Assembly: GCA_001898645.1 (NCBI GenBank)
Contig: MKUQ01000021.1
Location: forward strand, 1 to 64,000
Length of the DNA stretch: 64,000 bases
Reading direction: 5' to 3'
From: Burkholderiales bacterium 70-64
GTDB taxonomy: Bacteria; Pseudomonadota; Gammaproteobacteria; Burkholderiales; Burkholderiaceae_E
Within the stretch, counting starts at the first letter, position 1, and the number at the start of each line of letters is the position of its first letter. The translations under genes were made by a program, and so were the position numbers. Below the pieces are notes generated by a model. It saw nothing but the letters and a program-made list of their open reading frames with translations, searched no databases and was not told where the DNA came from. Positions 6,711 through 12,646 of this stretch are shown piece by piece.

Positions 6711-8111
<1,401 letters not shown>

Positions 8112-8117
<6 letters not shown>

Positions 8118-8137
8118 TGTGAACGTTCATTCTGAAC
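8112..8137. promoter_or_regulatory. Two abutting 13-bp palindromes, candidate enhancer sites (UAS)
   Basis: GTTCACTGTGAAC (8112-8124) is immediately followed by GTTCATTCTGAAC (8125-8137). The half-site GTTCA...TGAAC is common to both. The pair is centred about 90 bp upstream of the predicted -24 element at 8216, the usual distance for an enhancer-binding protein. It overlaps the GTG start of the activator gene, so autoregulation is also possible. Confidence 0.6.
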
Positions 8138-8214
8138 ATATCTCTACCGTTACGGAAGCCCGGACTCCTGCGGATCACGAAAAAAGGCGATGCAGATCAA
8201 GCGTCTGACGATGC

Positions 8215-8230
8215 TGGCACGACTTTGGCT
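8215..8230 (+). promoter_or_regulatory. Predicted sigma-54 (-24/-12) promoter
   Basis: TGGCACGACTTTGGCT matches TGGCACG-N4-TTGCW with a single substitution in the -12 element. The invariant GG and GC have the required spacing of 12. It lies about 56 bp before the first gene of the reductase operon and downstream of the tandem palindromes. A weak IHF-like sequence (8195-8207) lies between them. Confidence 0.7.
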
Positions 8231-8285
8231 AGAGATCAGGCAAGCGGACGTGCGGCACCCCTGCCGCATCCGAAAGGAGGGAGCC

Positions 8286-8576
8286 ATGAAAACCATCGTC
8301 ACCCTGGCGCTTGCCGGCCTCGCCACCGGCGCCATCGCCGCCACGCCGGTCGGCGAGGATCAGGTCGCGGCGAGCTTCACGCGCATGTTCGCGCACGCGC
8401 CGGCACCGACCGCACCGGCCGATCGGACCGCGCTCGCGCACCTGGGCAGCGACCCGCTGGTGCGCACCGTCAGCGCCGCGCTGTGGGCCCAGGAGCCGGC
8501 CGGCTACCACGTGCCGCAGGTGGCCGCCTTCTCCGCGCGCCCGACGCCGGCACGCGCCCCGGGAAGCGCCCGATGA
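8286..8576 (+). CDS. Small exported hypothetical protein, first gene of the norSY-like operon
   Basis: 96-residue protein with a clear signal peptide (MKTIVTLALAGLATGAIAA, cleavage after the Ala run) and a short Pro/Ala-rich mature part of about 75 residues. No family was recognised and it contains no cysteine, heme or copper motif. AAGGAGGGAGCC gives a very strong ribosome site before the ATG at 8286. Its stop overlaps the next start as ATGA (8573-8576), so it is probably co-translated with the subunit II gene. As first gene behind the sigma-54 promoter it should be highly expressed. It could be an assembly factor or small extra subunit, but that is only inference from position. Confidence 0.7.
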   Translation: MKTIVTLALAGLATGAIAATPVGEDQVAASFTRMFAHAPAPTAPADRTALAHLGSDPLVRTVSAALWAQEPAGYHVPQVAAFSARPTPARAPGSAR

Positions 8577-9106
8577 TCCAGGAGAAGGTCTGGCTGATCT
8601 CGGTCACGCTGATGGGGCTGCTGGCGGCGGTCTTCGTCTTCGTGCATGCGCGCTCGCACCGGCGCGAGAACGACTACGCGCCGCTGCAGAAGCGCGCCTA
8701 CCGGCTGCGCGCGGTGTTCTTCTGGGCGCTGGTGCTCACGCTCGGGCCGGCGACGGTCTACACCCTCGCCGACCTGCCCTACGGCTCGGCGAGGGCCGGC
8801 TCGAGCGCGGGCGGCGTGCAGGTGATCGAGGCCGTGGGCCACCAGTGGCGCTGGGACCTCAGCCGCACCGAGGTCAAGGCCGGCGAGCCGGTGGAGTTCC
8901 TCGTCACCAGCGCCGACGTGAACCACGGCTTCGGCATCTACGACGCCGACCTGCGCCTGGTCGCCCAGACGCAGGCGATGCCGGGCTACACAAACAGGCT
9001 GCGCCACACCTTCGCGGCCGAGGGCACCTACCGCGTGCTGTGCATGGAGTACTGCGGGCTGGTGCATCACAACATGATCACCGAGATCAAGGTCGTCAAA
9101 CCCTGA
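8573..9106 (+). CDS. norS: Heme-copper reductase subunit II with CuA site (NorS-like)
   Basis: Subunit II of a heme-copper oxygen or nitric oxide reductase, 177 residues. It has two N-terminal membrane helices (about 5-27 and 46-66) and a periplasmic cupredoxin domain. All CuA ligands are visible: the His of VNHGFGIYD and the motif CMEYCGLVHHNM (C-x3-C-x3-H-x2-M). It should accept electrons from a soluble cytochrome c or cupredoxin and pass them to subunit I. It starts within the stop of the upstream gene and is followed nine bases later by subunit I. The symbol norS is used because the order subunit II, subunit I, SenC, membrane protein matches norSY-senC-orf1; an ordinary small cytochrome oxidase subunit II is the alternative. 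Confidence 0.8.
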   Translation: MIQEKVWLISVTLMGLLAAVFVFVHARSHRRENDYAPLQKRAYRLRAVFFWALVLTLGPATVYTLADLPYGSARAGSSAGGVQVIEAVGHQWRWDLSRTEVKAGEPVEFLVTSADVNHGFGIYDADLRLVAQTQAMPGYTNRLRHTFAAEGTYRVLCMEYCGLVHHNMITEIKVVKP

Positions 9107-9115
9107 GGGACGAGC

Positions 9116-10606
9116 GTGGCCATTTCCTATACCTATAAACCGACGATCGACCGCGGCGCCCGGGGCGGAGTCCTGGCCGCCATCGCCGTGGCGGTCGTGA
9201 CGCTGCTGCTGATGATGGTGTTCGGACTGCTGATGCGCATGGAGCAGGCCGAGCTCATCGCCATCGGGCCGACCTGGTTCTACCAGCTCATGACGCTGCA
9301 CGGCGCCGGCATGGTGGGCGTGGCGGGCCTGGCCGGGGCGGCGATCATGTGGCATTTCCTGAGCCAGTACGTGACGCTGTCGGCGCGCATCTTCGGCGCC
9401 AACCTGGTGCTGTTCCTGCTGGGCGTGCTGATGGTGCTCGCGTCCGTGCTCGGCGGGCATTTCCAGGGCGGCTGGACCTTCCTCTACCCGCTGCCGACCC
9501 GCGCCATGGGCATGTGGAGCAACGGCGCCGCCGTGCTGTTCATGAGCGGCATGCTGGTCATCGGCGTGGGCTTCCTGCTGCTGCACCTCGAGGTGGCGCG
9601 CGCGCTCACCAGCCGCTACGGCAACCTCGCGCGCGCCATGGGCTGGCCGCAGCTGTTCGGCCGCGATGCGGGCGATGCGCCGCCCCCGGCGGTGGTGGCC
9701 TCCGCCATGGTGACCATCGTCAACGTGCTGGGCCTGGTCGCCGGCGCCACCATCCTCGTGATGATGATCGTCAACGCGTACCTGCCCGGCTTCGCCATCG
9801 ATGCCCTGCTGGCCAAGAACCTGATCTACTTCTTCGGCCACGTGTTCATCAACGCCACCATCTACATGGCGGTGATCGCTGTCTACGAGATCCTGCCGCG
9901 CTACACGCACCGGCCGTGGAAGTCGAACAAGGTATTCCTGGCCTCGTGGACCGCCTCGACCCTGCTGGTGATATTCATCTTCCCGCACCACCTGCTGATG
10001 GACTTCGCCATGCCCAGGTGGATGCTGATCATGGGCCAGGTGGTCGGCTACCTCAACACCTTCCCGATCCTGGTGGTCACCGCCTACGGCGGGCTGATGA
10101 TCGTGTACCGTTCGGGCATCCGCTGGGACGTCGCCTCGACGCTGCTGTACGTGGCGCTGTTCGGCTGGGCGGCCGGCGCCATGCCGGCGTTCATCGACGG
10201 CACCATCGCGGTCAACTACGTGATGCACAACACCCTGTGGGTGCCGGGGCACTTCCATACCTACCTGCTGCTGGGCATGGTCACGATGGTGTTCGGCTTC
10301 ATGTACTACATCACGCGCGCGGGCGCCGCCGGCCATGATCACGCGGTCGATCGTCTCGCGGCGGGGATCTTCGTGCTGGCCACGCTCGGCTTCACGCTGA
10401 GCTTCCTCTACTCGGGCAAGGCCAGCATCGCGCGCCGCTACGCCGCGCACCTGCCCGAATGGGTGCCCTACGACCGCGTGGCCACGGTGTTCGCCGCCAT
10501 CGTGGTGGCCGCGGTGGCGGTGTTCGTGCTGCGATTCCTGGCGCGCCTGCCGATCGCCACCCGCGACTTCGCGCGTCCGGCGCTGCCCAGGGGCGTGGAG
10601 GCGTGA
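9116..10606 (+). CDS. norY: Heme-copper reductase subunit I lacking the active-site tyrosine (NorY-like, sNOR)
   Basis: Integral membrane catalytic subunit, 496 residues, about 12 helices. All six metal-ligand histidines are present: H62 (HGAGM) and H381 for the low-spin heme, H242 (FFGHVFIN), H291 and H292 (FPHH) for CuB, and H379 (WVPGHFH) for the high-spin heme. In oxygen-reducing oxidases of the A and B families the helix VI motif is HPEVY or similar, with a tyrosine cross-linked four residues after the first CuB ligand; here that place is N246. Loss of this tyrosine is a hallmark of nitric oxide reductases derived from oxidases. The sequence around GHFH resembles B-family (ba3-type) enzymes. 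GTG start with GAGGGA upstream. Function as a nitric oxide reductase is inferred from active site and gene order. Confidence 0.8.
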   Translation: MAISYTYKPTIDRGARGGVLAAIAVAVVTLLLMMVFGLLMRMEQAELIAIGPTWFYQLMTLHGAGMVGVAGLAGAAIMWHFLSQYVTLSARIFGANLVLFLLGVLMVLASVLGGHFQGGWTFLYPLPTRAMGMWSNGAAVLFMSGMLVIGVGFLLLHLEVARALTSRYGNLARAMGWPQLFGRDAGDAPPPAVVASAMVTIVNVLGLVAGATILVMMIVNAYLPGFAIDALLAKNLIYFFGHVFINATIYMAVIAVYEILPRYTHRPWKSNKVFLASWTASTLLVIFIFPHHLLMDFAMPRWMLIMGQVVGYLNTFPILVVTAYGGLMIVYRSGIRWDVASTLLYVALFGWAAGAMPAFIDGTIAVNYVMHNTLWVPGHFHTYLLLGMVTMVFGFMYYITRAGAAGHDHAVDRLAAGIFVLATLGFTLSFLYSGKASIARRYAAHLPEWVPYDRVATVFAAIVVAAVAVFVLRFLARLPIATRDFARPALPRGVEA

Positions 10607-11208
10607 CCCGCGCGCTCGGTGCCTCGCTGCTGGTGGTGCTGGCCGCGCTGGCCGTATTCACCTGGGGCACCGACGGCTGGAGCGCCTTCACCGGCGAGAC
10701 CGCACGGCGCGAACGGGTGCTGCGCCATCCGCGCCCGCTGCCGGCGGCCGTGCTGGAGGACCAGGACGGCCGCCCGTTCGAGCTGAGCGACTATCGCGGA
10801 CGCAGCCTGGCGGTGGAATTCATCTACACCCGCTGCCCGTCGGTGTGCCGCAGCCTGGGCACGGCGTTCCGGCAGATCCGCGACGCGGTCGCGCCGCAGC
10901 GCCTCGAGCGCGATTTCGCCCTGCTCAGCATCAGCTTCGATGCGGAGCACGACGACGTGCCGGCGCTGGCCGCGTGGGCCGCCGCCCACGGCGCCGACGG
11001 GCGCCACTGGCGCGTGGCCCGCGTGCGCGACCCGGCCCGGCTCGCGCCGCTGCTCGACGCCTTCGGCGTCGTGGTGATCGCCGACGGCCTGGGCGGCTAC
11101 GAGCACAACGCGGCGATCCATCTGCTCGATCGCGACGGCCGGCTGGCGCGCATCGACGACATCGAGGCGCCGCGCAGCTTCCTCGCCCGCGCGGGCCTGC
11201 AGCAGTGA
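10603..11208 (+). CDS. senC: SCO1/SenC-family copper chaperone
   Basis: Membrane-anchored periplasmic thioredoxin-fold protein, 201 residues, that delivers copper to the CuA site of the reductase or reduces its cysteines. It has one N-terminal membrane helix (about 4-22), the copper-binding RCPSVC motif (C78, C82) and a distal His in AAIHLLDRDG. A GTGA overlap couples it to subunit I and its own stop overlaps the next gene. SenC is a fixed part of norSY-senC-orf1 clusters, which supports the assignment of the operon. Confidence 0.88.
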   Translation: MTRALGASLLVVLAALAVFTWGTDGWSAFTGETARRERVLRHPRPLPAAVLEDQDGRPFELSDYRGRSLAVEFIYTRCPSVCRSLGTAFRQIRDAVAPQRLERDFALLSISFDAEHDDVPALAAWAAAHGADGRHWRVARVRDPARLAPLLDAFGVVVIADGLGGYEHNAAIHLLDRDGRLARIDDIEAPRSFLARAGLQQ

Positions 11209-11918
11209 ACGCGGCCGCCGCGCGGCGCGGCGCGGCGGCGTGGCCGGCCGCGCTGCTGTGGCTGGCGCTGGCGGCGCCGCCGCTGCGCGGTGCGCTGGAG
11301 GCGTCGATGAGCACGCACATGCTGCTGCAGATGCCGCTGCTGGCCGCGAGCGGGTTCGCCGCGGTGCGCGCACTCGCGCCGCCGCGGCGCGCGCGGGCGC
11401 TGGAGCTGGCCGGCGGCTGCGTGCCGCCGGTGCTGGCGGCGATGCTGGCCGCGAGCTACTGGATGCTGCCGCGCGCGCTGGATGCCGCGCTGGCCGACGG
11501 GGCCGCGGAGCTGGCCAAGTTCGTCACCCTGCCCCTGCTGGTGGGCGCGCCCCTGGCGCTGGCCTGGGAGCGGCTCGGCGCGGTCGGACGCGGCTTCGTG
11601 TGGACCAACCTCGCGAGCATGCTGGCGGTGACCGGCTGGCTCTACCTTGCCGCGCCGGTGCGCCTGTGCAATGCCTACCTGGCCTCGGGCCAGCACGAGG
11701 CCGGCGCGTGGATGGTCCGGCTCGCGGCGGCGATCCTGCTCGGCTGGCTGGCCGGGCTGCTCGTCGGCACGCCGGCGCAGCGCGGCGAGGCACCCGCCGG
11801 CGCGGGCGCGGCGCCTACAGGATGCGCGCCAGCCAGGCGCCGATCGCCTCGATCTCCTGCGGGCACACCGCGTGCCCCATCGGGTATTCGTGCCACTCGA
11901 CCGGATAGCCGAGCGTAG
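11205..11918 (+). CDS. Hypothetical membrane protein, orf1-like, last gene of the norSY operon
   Basis: 237-residue protein with about five or six hydrophobic helices. The N-terminal part contains STHMLLQMPLLAASG, reminiscent of the heme-copper-associated CtaG-like membrane proteins; the rest is Ala/Leu-rich. GTG start inside the stop of senC (GTGA). The last helix ends near residue 200; the remaining tail of about 40 residues is basic and Pro/Ser-rich and overlaps by 104 bp the end of the convergent esterase gene. That tail is probably not conserved, possibly because an original stop codon was lost. It occupies the position of orf1 in norSY-senC-orf1 clusters; its biochemical role is unknown. 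Confidence 0.7.
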   Translation: MNAAAARRGAAAWPAALLWLALAAPPLRGALEASMSTHMLLQMPLLAASGFAAVRALAPPRRARALELAGGCVPPVLAAMLAASYWMLPRALDAALADGAAELAKFVTLPLLVGAPLALAWERLGAVGRGFVWTNLASMLAVTGWLYLAAPVRLCNAYLASGQHEAGAWMVRLAAAILLGWLAGLLVGTPAQRGEAPAGAGAAPTGCAPARRRSPRSPAGTPRAPSGIRATRPDSRA

Positions 11919-12646
11919 CCAGCGCATCGCGCGACTGCCGCGCGCGCTCGATGCCGACCATCTCGTCGTCGCGGCCATGCGCCATGAAGATCGGGACATC
12001 GGCATTGGCCGCCTCGCGTTCGGCCGCCAGGGTGTCGGCCAGCGGCAGCCAGGTCGACAGCGCCATCACGCCGGCCAGCCGCCGGGGGTGTCGCAGGCCC
12101 GTCTGCAGCGCGATCGCCCCGCCCTGCGAGAATCCGGCCAGCACGATGCGCTGCGCGGCGATGCCGCGCTCGCACTCGCGCGCCACCAGCGCCTCCAGCA
12201 GCGCCTGCGACGCCCGGATGCCCGCTTCGTCCTGGCGCCGGCCGCCCAGCTCGACGATGTCGAACCACGCGCGCATCGCCATGCCCATGTTGATCGTCAC
12301 CGGGCGCAGCGGCGCGTGCGGGAACACGAAGCGCACCGCGAGGCGCGCCGGCAGGCGCAGCGCGGGCACTACCGGCTCGAAGTCGTGGCCGTCGGCACCT
12401 AGGGGTCTGTCGGAGTTGAAGCCGCCCCGGCCCGAAGGGTGAGCCCGTGGCCGGGCCGCACTCGGCGTTGCAAATGCTCGACGTGGCCACCGCCACGTCT
12501 GCGCTTTGCGCCTTGATTGCGGCCCGGCCACGGGCTCACGCGGGCCGGCTTCAACTCCGACAGACTCCTAGGCCGTGCAGCCAGATGACGGCGGCATCGG
12601 CGTGCGCGCCGGTGGAGGTCTCGATGGTCTCGGGCAGGGGGGTCAT
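11815..12646 (-). pseudogene. Carboxylesterase/phospholipase-family hydrolase split by a small mobile element
   Basis: Originally an alpha/beta-hydrolase of about 220 residues. The first part (12646 to 12572) encodes MTPLPETIETSTGAHADAAV through HGL. The rest (12398 to 11815) resumes GADGHDFEPVVPALRLP and includes the nucleophile elbow GFSQGG, the acid in HGRDDEMV and the His in YPMGHAVC. Joined, they give the family's HGLGADGHDF oxyanion motif. The two parts are separated by the 165-bp element plus a 4-bp target duplication, which shifts the frame and brings a stop soon after HGLG. A GTG inside the element could restart translation, but the product would lack the first strand and the HGLG loop. 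The gene is therefore very probably inactive. Confidence 0.85.
12399..12571. mobile_element. 165-bp MITE/REP-like palindromic element inserted at CTAG
   Basis: The element occupies 12403-12567 and is flanked on both sides by CTAG (12399-12402 and 12568-12571), which the uninterrupted esterase gene would contain once. Its ends are inverted copies, G(G/A)GTCTGTCGGAGTTGAAGC. Further inside, GAGCCCGTGGCCGGGCCGC is repeated in inverted form, and the centre has GACGTGGC-CACC-GCCACGTC, so the whole unit can fold into one long hairpin. It carries no transposase gene. A related single end lies at 24724-24746. Confidence 0.8.

Follow-up and report, generated by a model that had tools for sequence, protein, structure and literature searches.

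A putative nitric oxide reductase operon of the sNOR type, paired with a co-inherited sigma-54 activator, in a Burkholderiales bacterium

The stretch of DNA considered here (the window) comprises positions 1 to 64,000 of contig MKUQ01000021.1 of Burkholderiales bacterium 70-64, and contains a putative nitric oxide (NO) reductase operon facing the gene of a sigma-54-dependent activator. Within these 64 kb (71% G+C) the two form a divergent pair, with the activator on the minus strand and a tightly packed plus-strand operon of five genes, which together with the control region takes up 8112-11921. The operon begins with a gene for a small exported protein, as read from its translation (8286..8576, +), followed by norS (8573..9106, +), encoding a CuA subunit II (Pfam COX2, E 7.8e-9; CuA ligand string CMEYCGLVHHNM in the translation), and norY (9116..10606, +), encoding a heme-copper (COX1-type) subunit I with Asn in place of the active-site Tyr (COX1, E 4.2e-46; active-site columns and tree below). 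A senC/SCO1-like gene (10603..11208, +; SCO1-SenC, E 1.5e-12) and orf1 (11205..11921 including the stop, +), encoding the membrane protein of norSY clusters and assigned to no Pfam family, complete it. The name and order norSY-senC-orf1 are those of a published inventory of ammonia-oxidizing bacteria (AOB) (PMC4940428). Adjoining genes overlap by 4 bases, except for a gap of 9 bp between norS and norY. The first-pass annotation had proposed this gene order, preceded by a small exported protein, and all of these genes were found where it placed them, with the orf1 stop ending at 11921.

The control region resembles a full sigma-54 module and combines three kinds of elements, scored where applicable against consensus strings for sigma-54 and IHF sites. 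Closest to the operon lies a -24/-12 sigma-54 promoter-like element, TGGCACGACTTTGGCT (GG-N10-GC; 8215..8230, +), matching 11 of 12 consensus positions, and 20 bp before its -24 element an IHF-like site, GATCAAGCGTCTG (8195..8207, +), matching 7 of 9. Further upstream, two tandem head-to-tail enhancer palindromes, GTTCACTGTGAAC and GTTCATTCTGAAC (GTTCA-N3-TGAAC; 8112..8137, either strand), stand in a 13-bp register with their centers 111 and 98 bp before the -12 C; 0.00 such arrangements are expected by chance. The tandem enhancer was not named in the first-pass annotation, though the start coordinate given there, 8112, falls on it. The good promoter that it did name is the sole exact match of the pattern in 64 kb (0.10 expected); a search tolerating one mismatch gives 3 where 5.1 are expected, so that, taken by itself, the element is modest evidence. 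The genome holds nine other exact palindromes, none with a GG-N10-GC element scoring at least 9 within 180 bp, and for this reason the norSY target looks single. All nine fall in long open frames, which is weak evidence in such G+C-rich DNA, and one (L049) stands at the start of a transposase-like frame. A regulon beyond norSY was considered and rejected, the sole enhancer-plus-promoter site in the genome being that of norSY. When the order to which the window belongs was surveyed (399 genomes), the strict combined pattern turned up in 2 genomes, one of them that of the window, and the reversed control pattern in 1.

The divergent gene (6711..8117, -) encodes a PAS(Cys4)-AAA+(sigma-54)-Fis-HTH enhancer-binding protein of 468 amino acids (Pfam PAS, Sigma54_activat, HTH_8). 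The PAS-type enhancer-binding protein that had been predicted opposite the operon is thus present with its PAS-AAA+-Fis architecture; its start is to be corrected, the in-frame GTG at 8096 being likelier than 8117 since it aligns with the Met of most orthologs. From 8096 the whole enhancer lies upstream of the activator, while the first possible start, 8117, falls inside the palindromes. The protein scores 338.9 bits against the NorR model (cut-off 476) and 341.4 against the NifA model (cut-off 528.85), below both. Its PAS domain is the only match of the PAS model in its own genome, in which rpoN also gives one match.

The assignment of NorY to sNOR was examined across related loci. A scan of genome contigs seeded by six short peptide patterns returned 38 NorY loci, a sample that is not a census and includes no Nitrosomonas. 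In 33 of them NorY is 67-85% identical to that of the window, including nine Nitrosospira/Nitrosovibrio AOB loci at 69-71%; the other five, from more distant groups, reach 49-57%. Next to norY, norS was seen in 37 loci, senC in 35 (not in L020, L021, and L040), and orf1 in all 38. An active-site alignment combined 17 NorY sequences, one from the window and the others from 16 of the 38 loci, with 36 heme-copper open reading frames (ORFs). These ORFs came from seven genomes, including that of the window, and were drawn from 44 COX1 matches over the cut-off (8 of 8 in the own genome, 28 of 36 in the other six). The six His ligands are conserved in every one of the 17 NorY rows, all of which have Asn at the Tyr position of transmembrane helix 6 (TM6), and V or T stands at the C-family Tyr position, which bears out the earlier description of a tyrosine-less subunit I. 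According to a published compilation, Asn at this site is characteristic of sNOR, where O2 reductases have Y, eNOR Q, gNOR D, and cNOR/qNOR E; Bacillus CuANOR (bNOR), which likewise has a CuA subunit, also has N (PMC8756737, Table A4).

The maximum-likelihood tree comprised 39 rows, namely 17 of 39 NorY rows and 22 of the 36 heme-copper ORFs; the 14 ORFs outside it include the window's own norY (L006) and second copies of rows already present (L084, L085, L088, L089). The NorY of the window clusters with sequences from Nitrosospira and Aromatoleum in a clade of 11 rows (support 100/99), within an 18-row clade (100/100), and outside the sNOR clade stand the sampled A-, B-, and C-family oxidases, cNOR, qNOR, eNOR, and Sporosarcina bNOR; the labels bNOR, eNOR, cNOR, and qNOR were assigned by us from active-site residues and grouping. 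Unlike NorY, the Sporosarcina row (L078, Asn) groups with the B-family O2 reductase. A B-family O2 reductase is accordingly rejected as the identity of NorY, which lacks the TM6 Tyr and does not group with L073, the one row representing B-family enzymes of the O2 type. The phylogeny of subunit I had been set beforehand as the test that could overturn the assignment, and NorY does not branch among the sampled O2 reductases; the tree was built from references other than gNOR and nNOR, and its deep joins are unsure because the tree program flagged long branches (L005, L007, L008). Six His ligands, Asn for Tyr, an adjoining CuA subunit II, the norS-norY-senC-orf1 order, and the clade with AOB NorY together agree with the sNOR type proposed at the outset, and comparative sequence strongly supports the identity of the locus as an sNOR-type operon. 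It should be kept in mind that sNOR is itself only a proposed family, outside the four biochemically characterized ones (PMC11388526).

The pairing of this operon with the activator recurs in other genomes. An orthologous activator (59-76% identical) is linked to norSY, within the fetched flanks, in 18 of the 38 loci, all betaproteobacterial by title: eight from Aromatoleum, one each from Noviherbaspirillum, Ramlibacter, Sulfuritalea, and Thiobacillus, two from Burkholderiaceae metagenome-assembled genomes (MAGs), and four from Rhodocyclaceae/Rhodocyclales MAGs. The exact palindrome is present in 14 of the 18 loci with the activator and in 0 of the 20 without it; when the promoter is required as well (strict palindrome-plus-promoter pattern), 12 of the 18 remain, again against none of the 20. 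A looser enhancer pattern gives 17 of 18 against 0 of 20; it was widened after the sequences had been seen, and the conclusion therefore rests on the exact palindrome. Only 19 of the 20 activator-less loci are informative upstream, since L038 starts inside norY. In L032 and L046 the activator has been relocated beyond the far side of the operon, and enhancer and promoter still precede norS. Of 19 control regions, 16 have their best IHF-like match 19-20 bp upstream of -24 (exceptions L033, L034, and L037), a descriptive observation. The nine AOB loci have neither activator nor enhancer, and their best -24/-12-like score is at most 9 of 12. Comparative sequence thus strongly supports the activator-enhancer-promoter pairing. 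The sigma-54/PAS circuit suggested by the first-pass annotation is supported by this comparison, activator, enhancer, IHF-like site, and -24/-12 element occurring together in many genomes and activator and enhancer being absent together elsewhere.

Could activator and norSY be chance neighbors, and the promoter match fortuitous? One-mismatch -24/-12 matches are as frequent per window as noted above, and the GG-N10-GC element alone is not diagnostic, two of the 19 activator-less loci (L009 and L040) scoring 10 or 11 of 12. Because these two have a good element and no activator, it is the combination of enhancer and promoter that counts, and this joint pattern is diagnostic; a chance promoter was rejected on that ground. 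Activator and enhancer are, moreover, present or absent together over the 38 loci, at a fixed spacing to the promoter and with largely congruent trees, and a chance association is hardly credible. The non-diagnostic element nevertheless counts among several observations that weigh against a dedicated circuit. The sigma-54 loop of the activator reads GAFSGA rather than GAFTGA; the IHF-like site of the window is no better than shuffled sequence (p 0.28); L021 has the activator with only a divergent enhancer and a weaker promoter; and the counts overstate independence, as 8 of the 18 activator-bearing loci belong to one genus.

Co-inheritance was also followed in the Aromatoleum family (81 genomes). 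Four of these genomes have strong PAS matches (E<=1e-48; the next at 7.7e-9), and NorY at 70% identity or more occurs in the same four only, while two further genomes have a NorY of 51-52% without the activator. With the center genome left out, the same 3 of 80 carry both, which would happen at random once in 82,160 (calculated by hand), a figure that kinship makes generous. The test is only partly new, because possession of both genes was the reason for picking the center genome (G401), and the PAS stretch of G441 is the one already seen in L032. Unlinked copies of the activator are not indicated either: at E<=1e-10 the PAS model found nothing in 13 genomes whose norSY is without a linked activator, three of them AOB, and the same model does match in positive genomes. 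Absence thus rests on whole-genome searches for 13 of the 20 loci (3 of the nine AOB loci) and on flanks for the rest, and several of these genomes are MAGs. When the NorY and activator trees are compared, six of seven well-supported NorY groups recur (the window with L012 and L021; L017 with L019; L032 with L046; L033 with L034; Aromatoleum; L011 with L045), and for the seventh, L012 with L021, the activator tree gives no resolution.

The AOB NorY sequences are nested in an eight-row group (97/92) whose five other rows all carry the activator, some inner branches being supported at 83/61 or left open. This nesting suggests that AOB lost the activator circuit. Two loci look like loss in progress. 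L020 retains synteny with the window, has no activator, and shows only a degraded promoter-like stretch (L020:5000-5400). L009, whose NorY is 85% identical, also has no activator; its first gene looks frame-broken, and TGGCGCGAGCGCGGCT stands at the promoter position (remnant region L009:5100-5460). Taken together, the comparisons point to a co-inherited activator circuit, built like NorR-norVW and equipped with a different sensor.

The reading that we consider probable is that of an sNOR-type heme-copper NO reductase operon with its own one-component sigma-54 activator, operating as follows. The activator made from the divergent gene would bind the tandem GTTCA-N3-TGAAC sites, and, by analogy with NorR at norVW, its PAS domain would keep the AAA+ ring inactive in the absence of a signal; once signaled, the ring would remodel sigma-54 polymerase. 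The ring would be brought to the polymerase at -24/-12 by bending of the DNA around the IHF-like site (about -45 to -33), presumably by IHF, and transcription of the small protein gene, norS, norY, senC, and orf1 would start near 8240. Electrons would pass from a periplasmic cytochrome c to the CuA of NorS and on to NorY, which is predicted to reduce NO to nitrous oxide (N2O), and SenC, perhaps with Orf1, would load copper. Four invariant PAS cysteines may hold a metal center, perhaps an iron-sulfur (Fe-S) cluster, through which NO, alone or together with low O2, would be sensed. Since a putative NO reductase is the single target seen in the genome, NO ranks first among the candidate signals, low O2 and copper being the others. 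The AOB relatives would have lost the circuit and would control norSY in another way. In a more far-reaching version, which is possible and put forward only tentatively, the activator founds a new class of NO sensors (Cys4 Fe-S PAS, dedicated to sNOR), and the circuit is ancestral in betaproteobacterial norSY and was lost by AOB once NO was a constant by-product.

The four cysteines in question (Cys57, 66, 70, and 76, numbered from 8117) are invariant in 19 of 19 activators and are kept in a divergent further activator (L095); their spacing, C-x8-C-x3-C-x5-C, differs from that in the PAS domain of NreB. In an alignment of 13 of the 19 PAS sequences there is no invariant or nearly invariant His, which makes a heme of the FixL/DOS type unlikely, and this candidate was set aside. 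Among the AlphaFold models, which carry no cofactor, the best has a PAS fold at a pLDDT (predicted local confidence) of 82 and the other four reach 59-74, and fold searches returned generic PAS, LOV, FixL, and DosP matches with no hint of a ligand. Further points against NO sensing arise here: the cysteine stretch belongs to the least confidently modeled regions (block pLDDT 65-72), and four cysteines fit O2, redox, or copper sensing as well as NO sensing. It is conceivable that the activator senses copper or thiol redox, so that the copper enzyme and SenC are made when copper or oxidizing conditions allow. A Cys-rich sensor without conserved His fits this, as does the presence of an SCO protein alongside a copper enzyme in one operon; norSY, however, has the only enhancer-plus-promoter site in the genome, copper genes as such lying outside that comparison, and we judge this explanation improbable.

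The same circuit might instead serve an enzyme that is mainly a high-affinity O2 reductase, with the Cys4-PAS domain using an O2-labile Fe-S cluster to detect low O2. When O2 is limiting, N. europaea upregulates norSY and senC 2.7- to 10.8-fold, which was read as pointing to a possible high-affinity oxidase and speaks against an NO reductase (PMC6967387), and the PAS domain of staphylococcal NreB, with its four cysteines, holds an O2-labile [4Fe-4S] cluster (PMC4601167). On the other side, none of the 17 sNOR rows has a Tyr at either known position, the tree places NorY apart from the B-family O2 reductase, and for O2 the genome encodes an A-family oxidase together with C-family (cbb3-type) relatives. 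For the sNOR of Nitrococcus mobilis, a study with indirect evidence for NO reduction is reported (PMC6967387). An enzyme devoted mainly to O2 therefore seems unlikely, and an NO-reducing NorSY remains the preferred interpretation. NreB is the nearest functional precedent for the Cys4 PAS domain, with the difference that NreB is a histidine kinase, while the domain of the window sits on a sigma-54 activator and its cluster is only presumed.

NorVW of E. coli is a flavorubredoxin, and the NorR enhancer there is GTCA-N3-TGAC. The norVW control region, with a divergent activator, three tandem enhancers, IHF, and a sigma-54 promoter (PMC4601167, PMC2941729), is the closest parallel in layout: the locus of the window shares, as judged from its sequence, a divergent one-component sigma-54 activator, tandem enhancers, an IHF-like site, a -24/-12 promoter, and a putative NO reductase as target. 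The activator differs in having a four-Cys PAS domain where NorR has a GAF domain with non-heme iron, and the target in being a heme-copper enzyme preceded by GTTCA-N3-TGAAC. Membership in NorR was rejected, given the PAS domain and the score below the NorR cut-off, and the activator is NorR-like only in layout. With the AOB clusters the locus shares gene order, CuA subunit II, and the Asn active site; unlike them, it has an activator, an enhancer, a good -24/-12 element, and an extra first gene. Sigma-54 activators for NO reductases are thus already known (NorR), whereas one for sNOR was not found in print: no report of sigma-54 control of an sNOR, or of a Cys4-PAS activator class, turned up in the open-access PMC literature, which is not proof of absence, and in the parts consulted of two papers sigma-54 is mentioned only for a reference gene and flagella.

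The function of sNOR is disputed between NO removal and high-affinity O2 respiration. A dedicated, conserved activator offers a genetic handle on this question, as knowing the signal would probably reveal which substrate the enzyme uses physiologically, and the circuit is testable because several named Aromatoleum species carry it. A four-Cys PAS domain on a sigma-54 activator would suggest another way to sense NO or redox state, and AOB would appear to have rewired the control of an enzyme thought to form N2O.

Relatives of the first gene of the operon are found as ORFs in L012 and L029 (tblastn), with look-alike ORFs in L033 and L034 (by eye), and the gene following the promoter is variable, encoding small exported proteins with DPLxxSFxRML-like motifs in these four loci (by eye) and a different exported protein in L017. 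In Ramlibacter (L019) the product of this gene is a small cytochrome c with a CLSCH motif, a finding compatible with electron transfer to CuA. Local synteny links the window to two Burkholderiaceae MAGs, L020 and L021, and piecewise to L012, so that its host probably belongs to this group. Orf1, modeled with a mean pLDDT of 84, gave no Pfam family (a single match, E 1.9) and no PDB fold match at E<=0.001; it has invariant residues W86-M87-x-P89-R90 and Cys155 in a 12-row alignment, in which its C-terminal tail is not conserved. The 3' end of orf1 overlaps a convergent esterase-like ORF (11815-12531, -) by about 100 bases (window 11815-11921).

Among plasmid records, no activator match was found at 1e-60, and NorY relatives at 37-53% identity occur in three. 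The genome of the window encodes further heme-copper proteins. L005 (C22:23608-24882, -) is a second Asn-type subunit I (GHTIVN), accompanied by a cytochrome c-CuA fusion subunit II and an SCO protein, and is the outermost, long-branched row of the clade that contains sNOR. Another PAS-type sigma-54 activator, without the Cys cluster (L127, C20:69538-70704, +), lies about 2 kb from a qNOR-like gene (L007, C20:72829-74190), which may, from this proximity, also be under sigma-54 control. L004 (C63:28515-29807, -) is a subunit I resembling that of eNOR (GHSSQQ); L008 (C63:23888-25093, -), some 3 kb away, encodes a very divergent heme-copper subunit with Phe at the Tyr position (GHVIQF).

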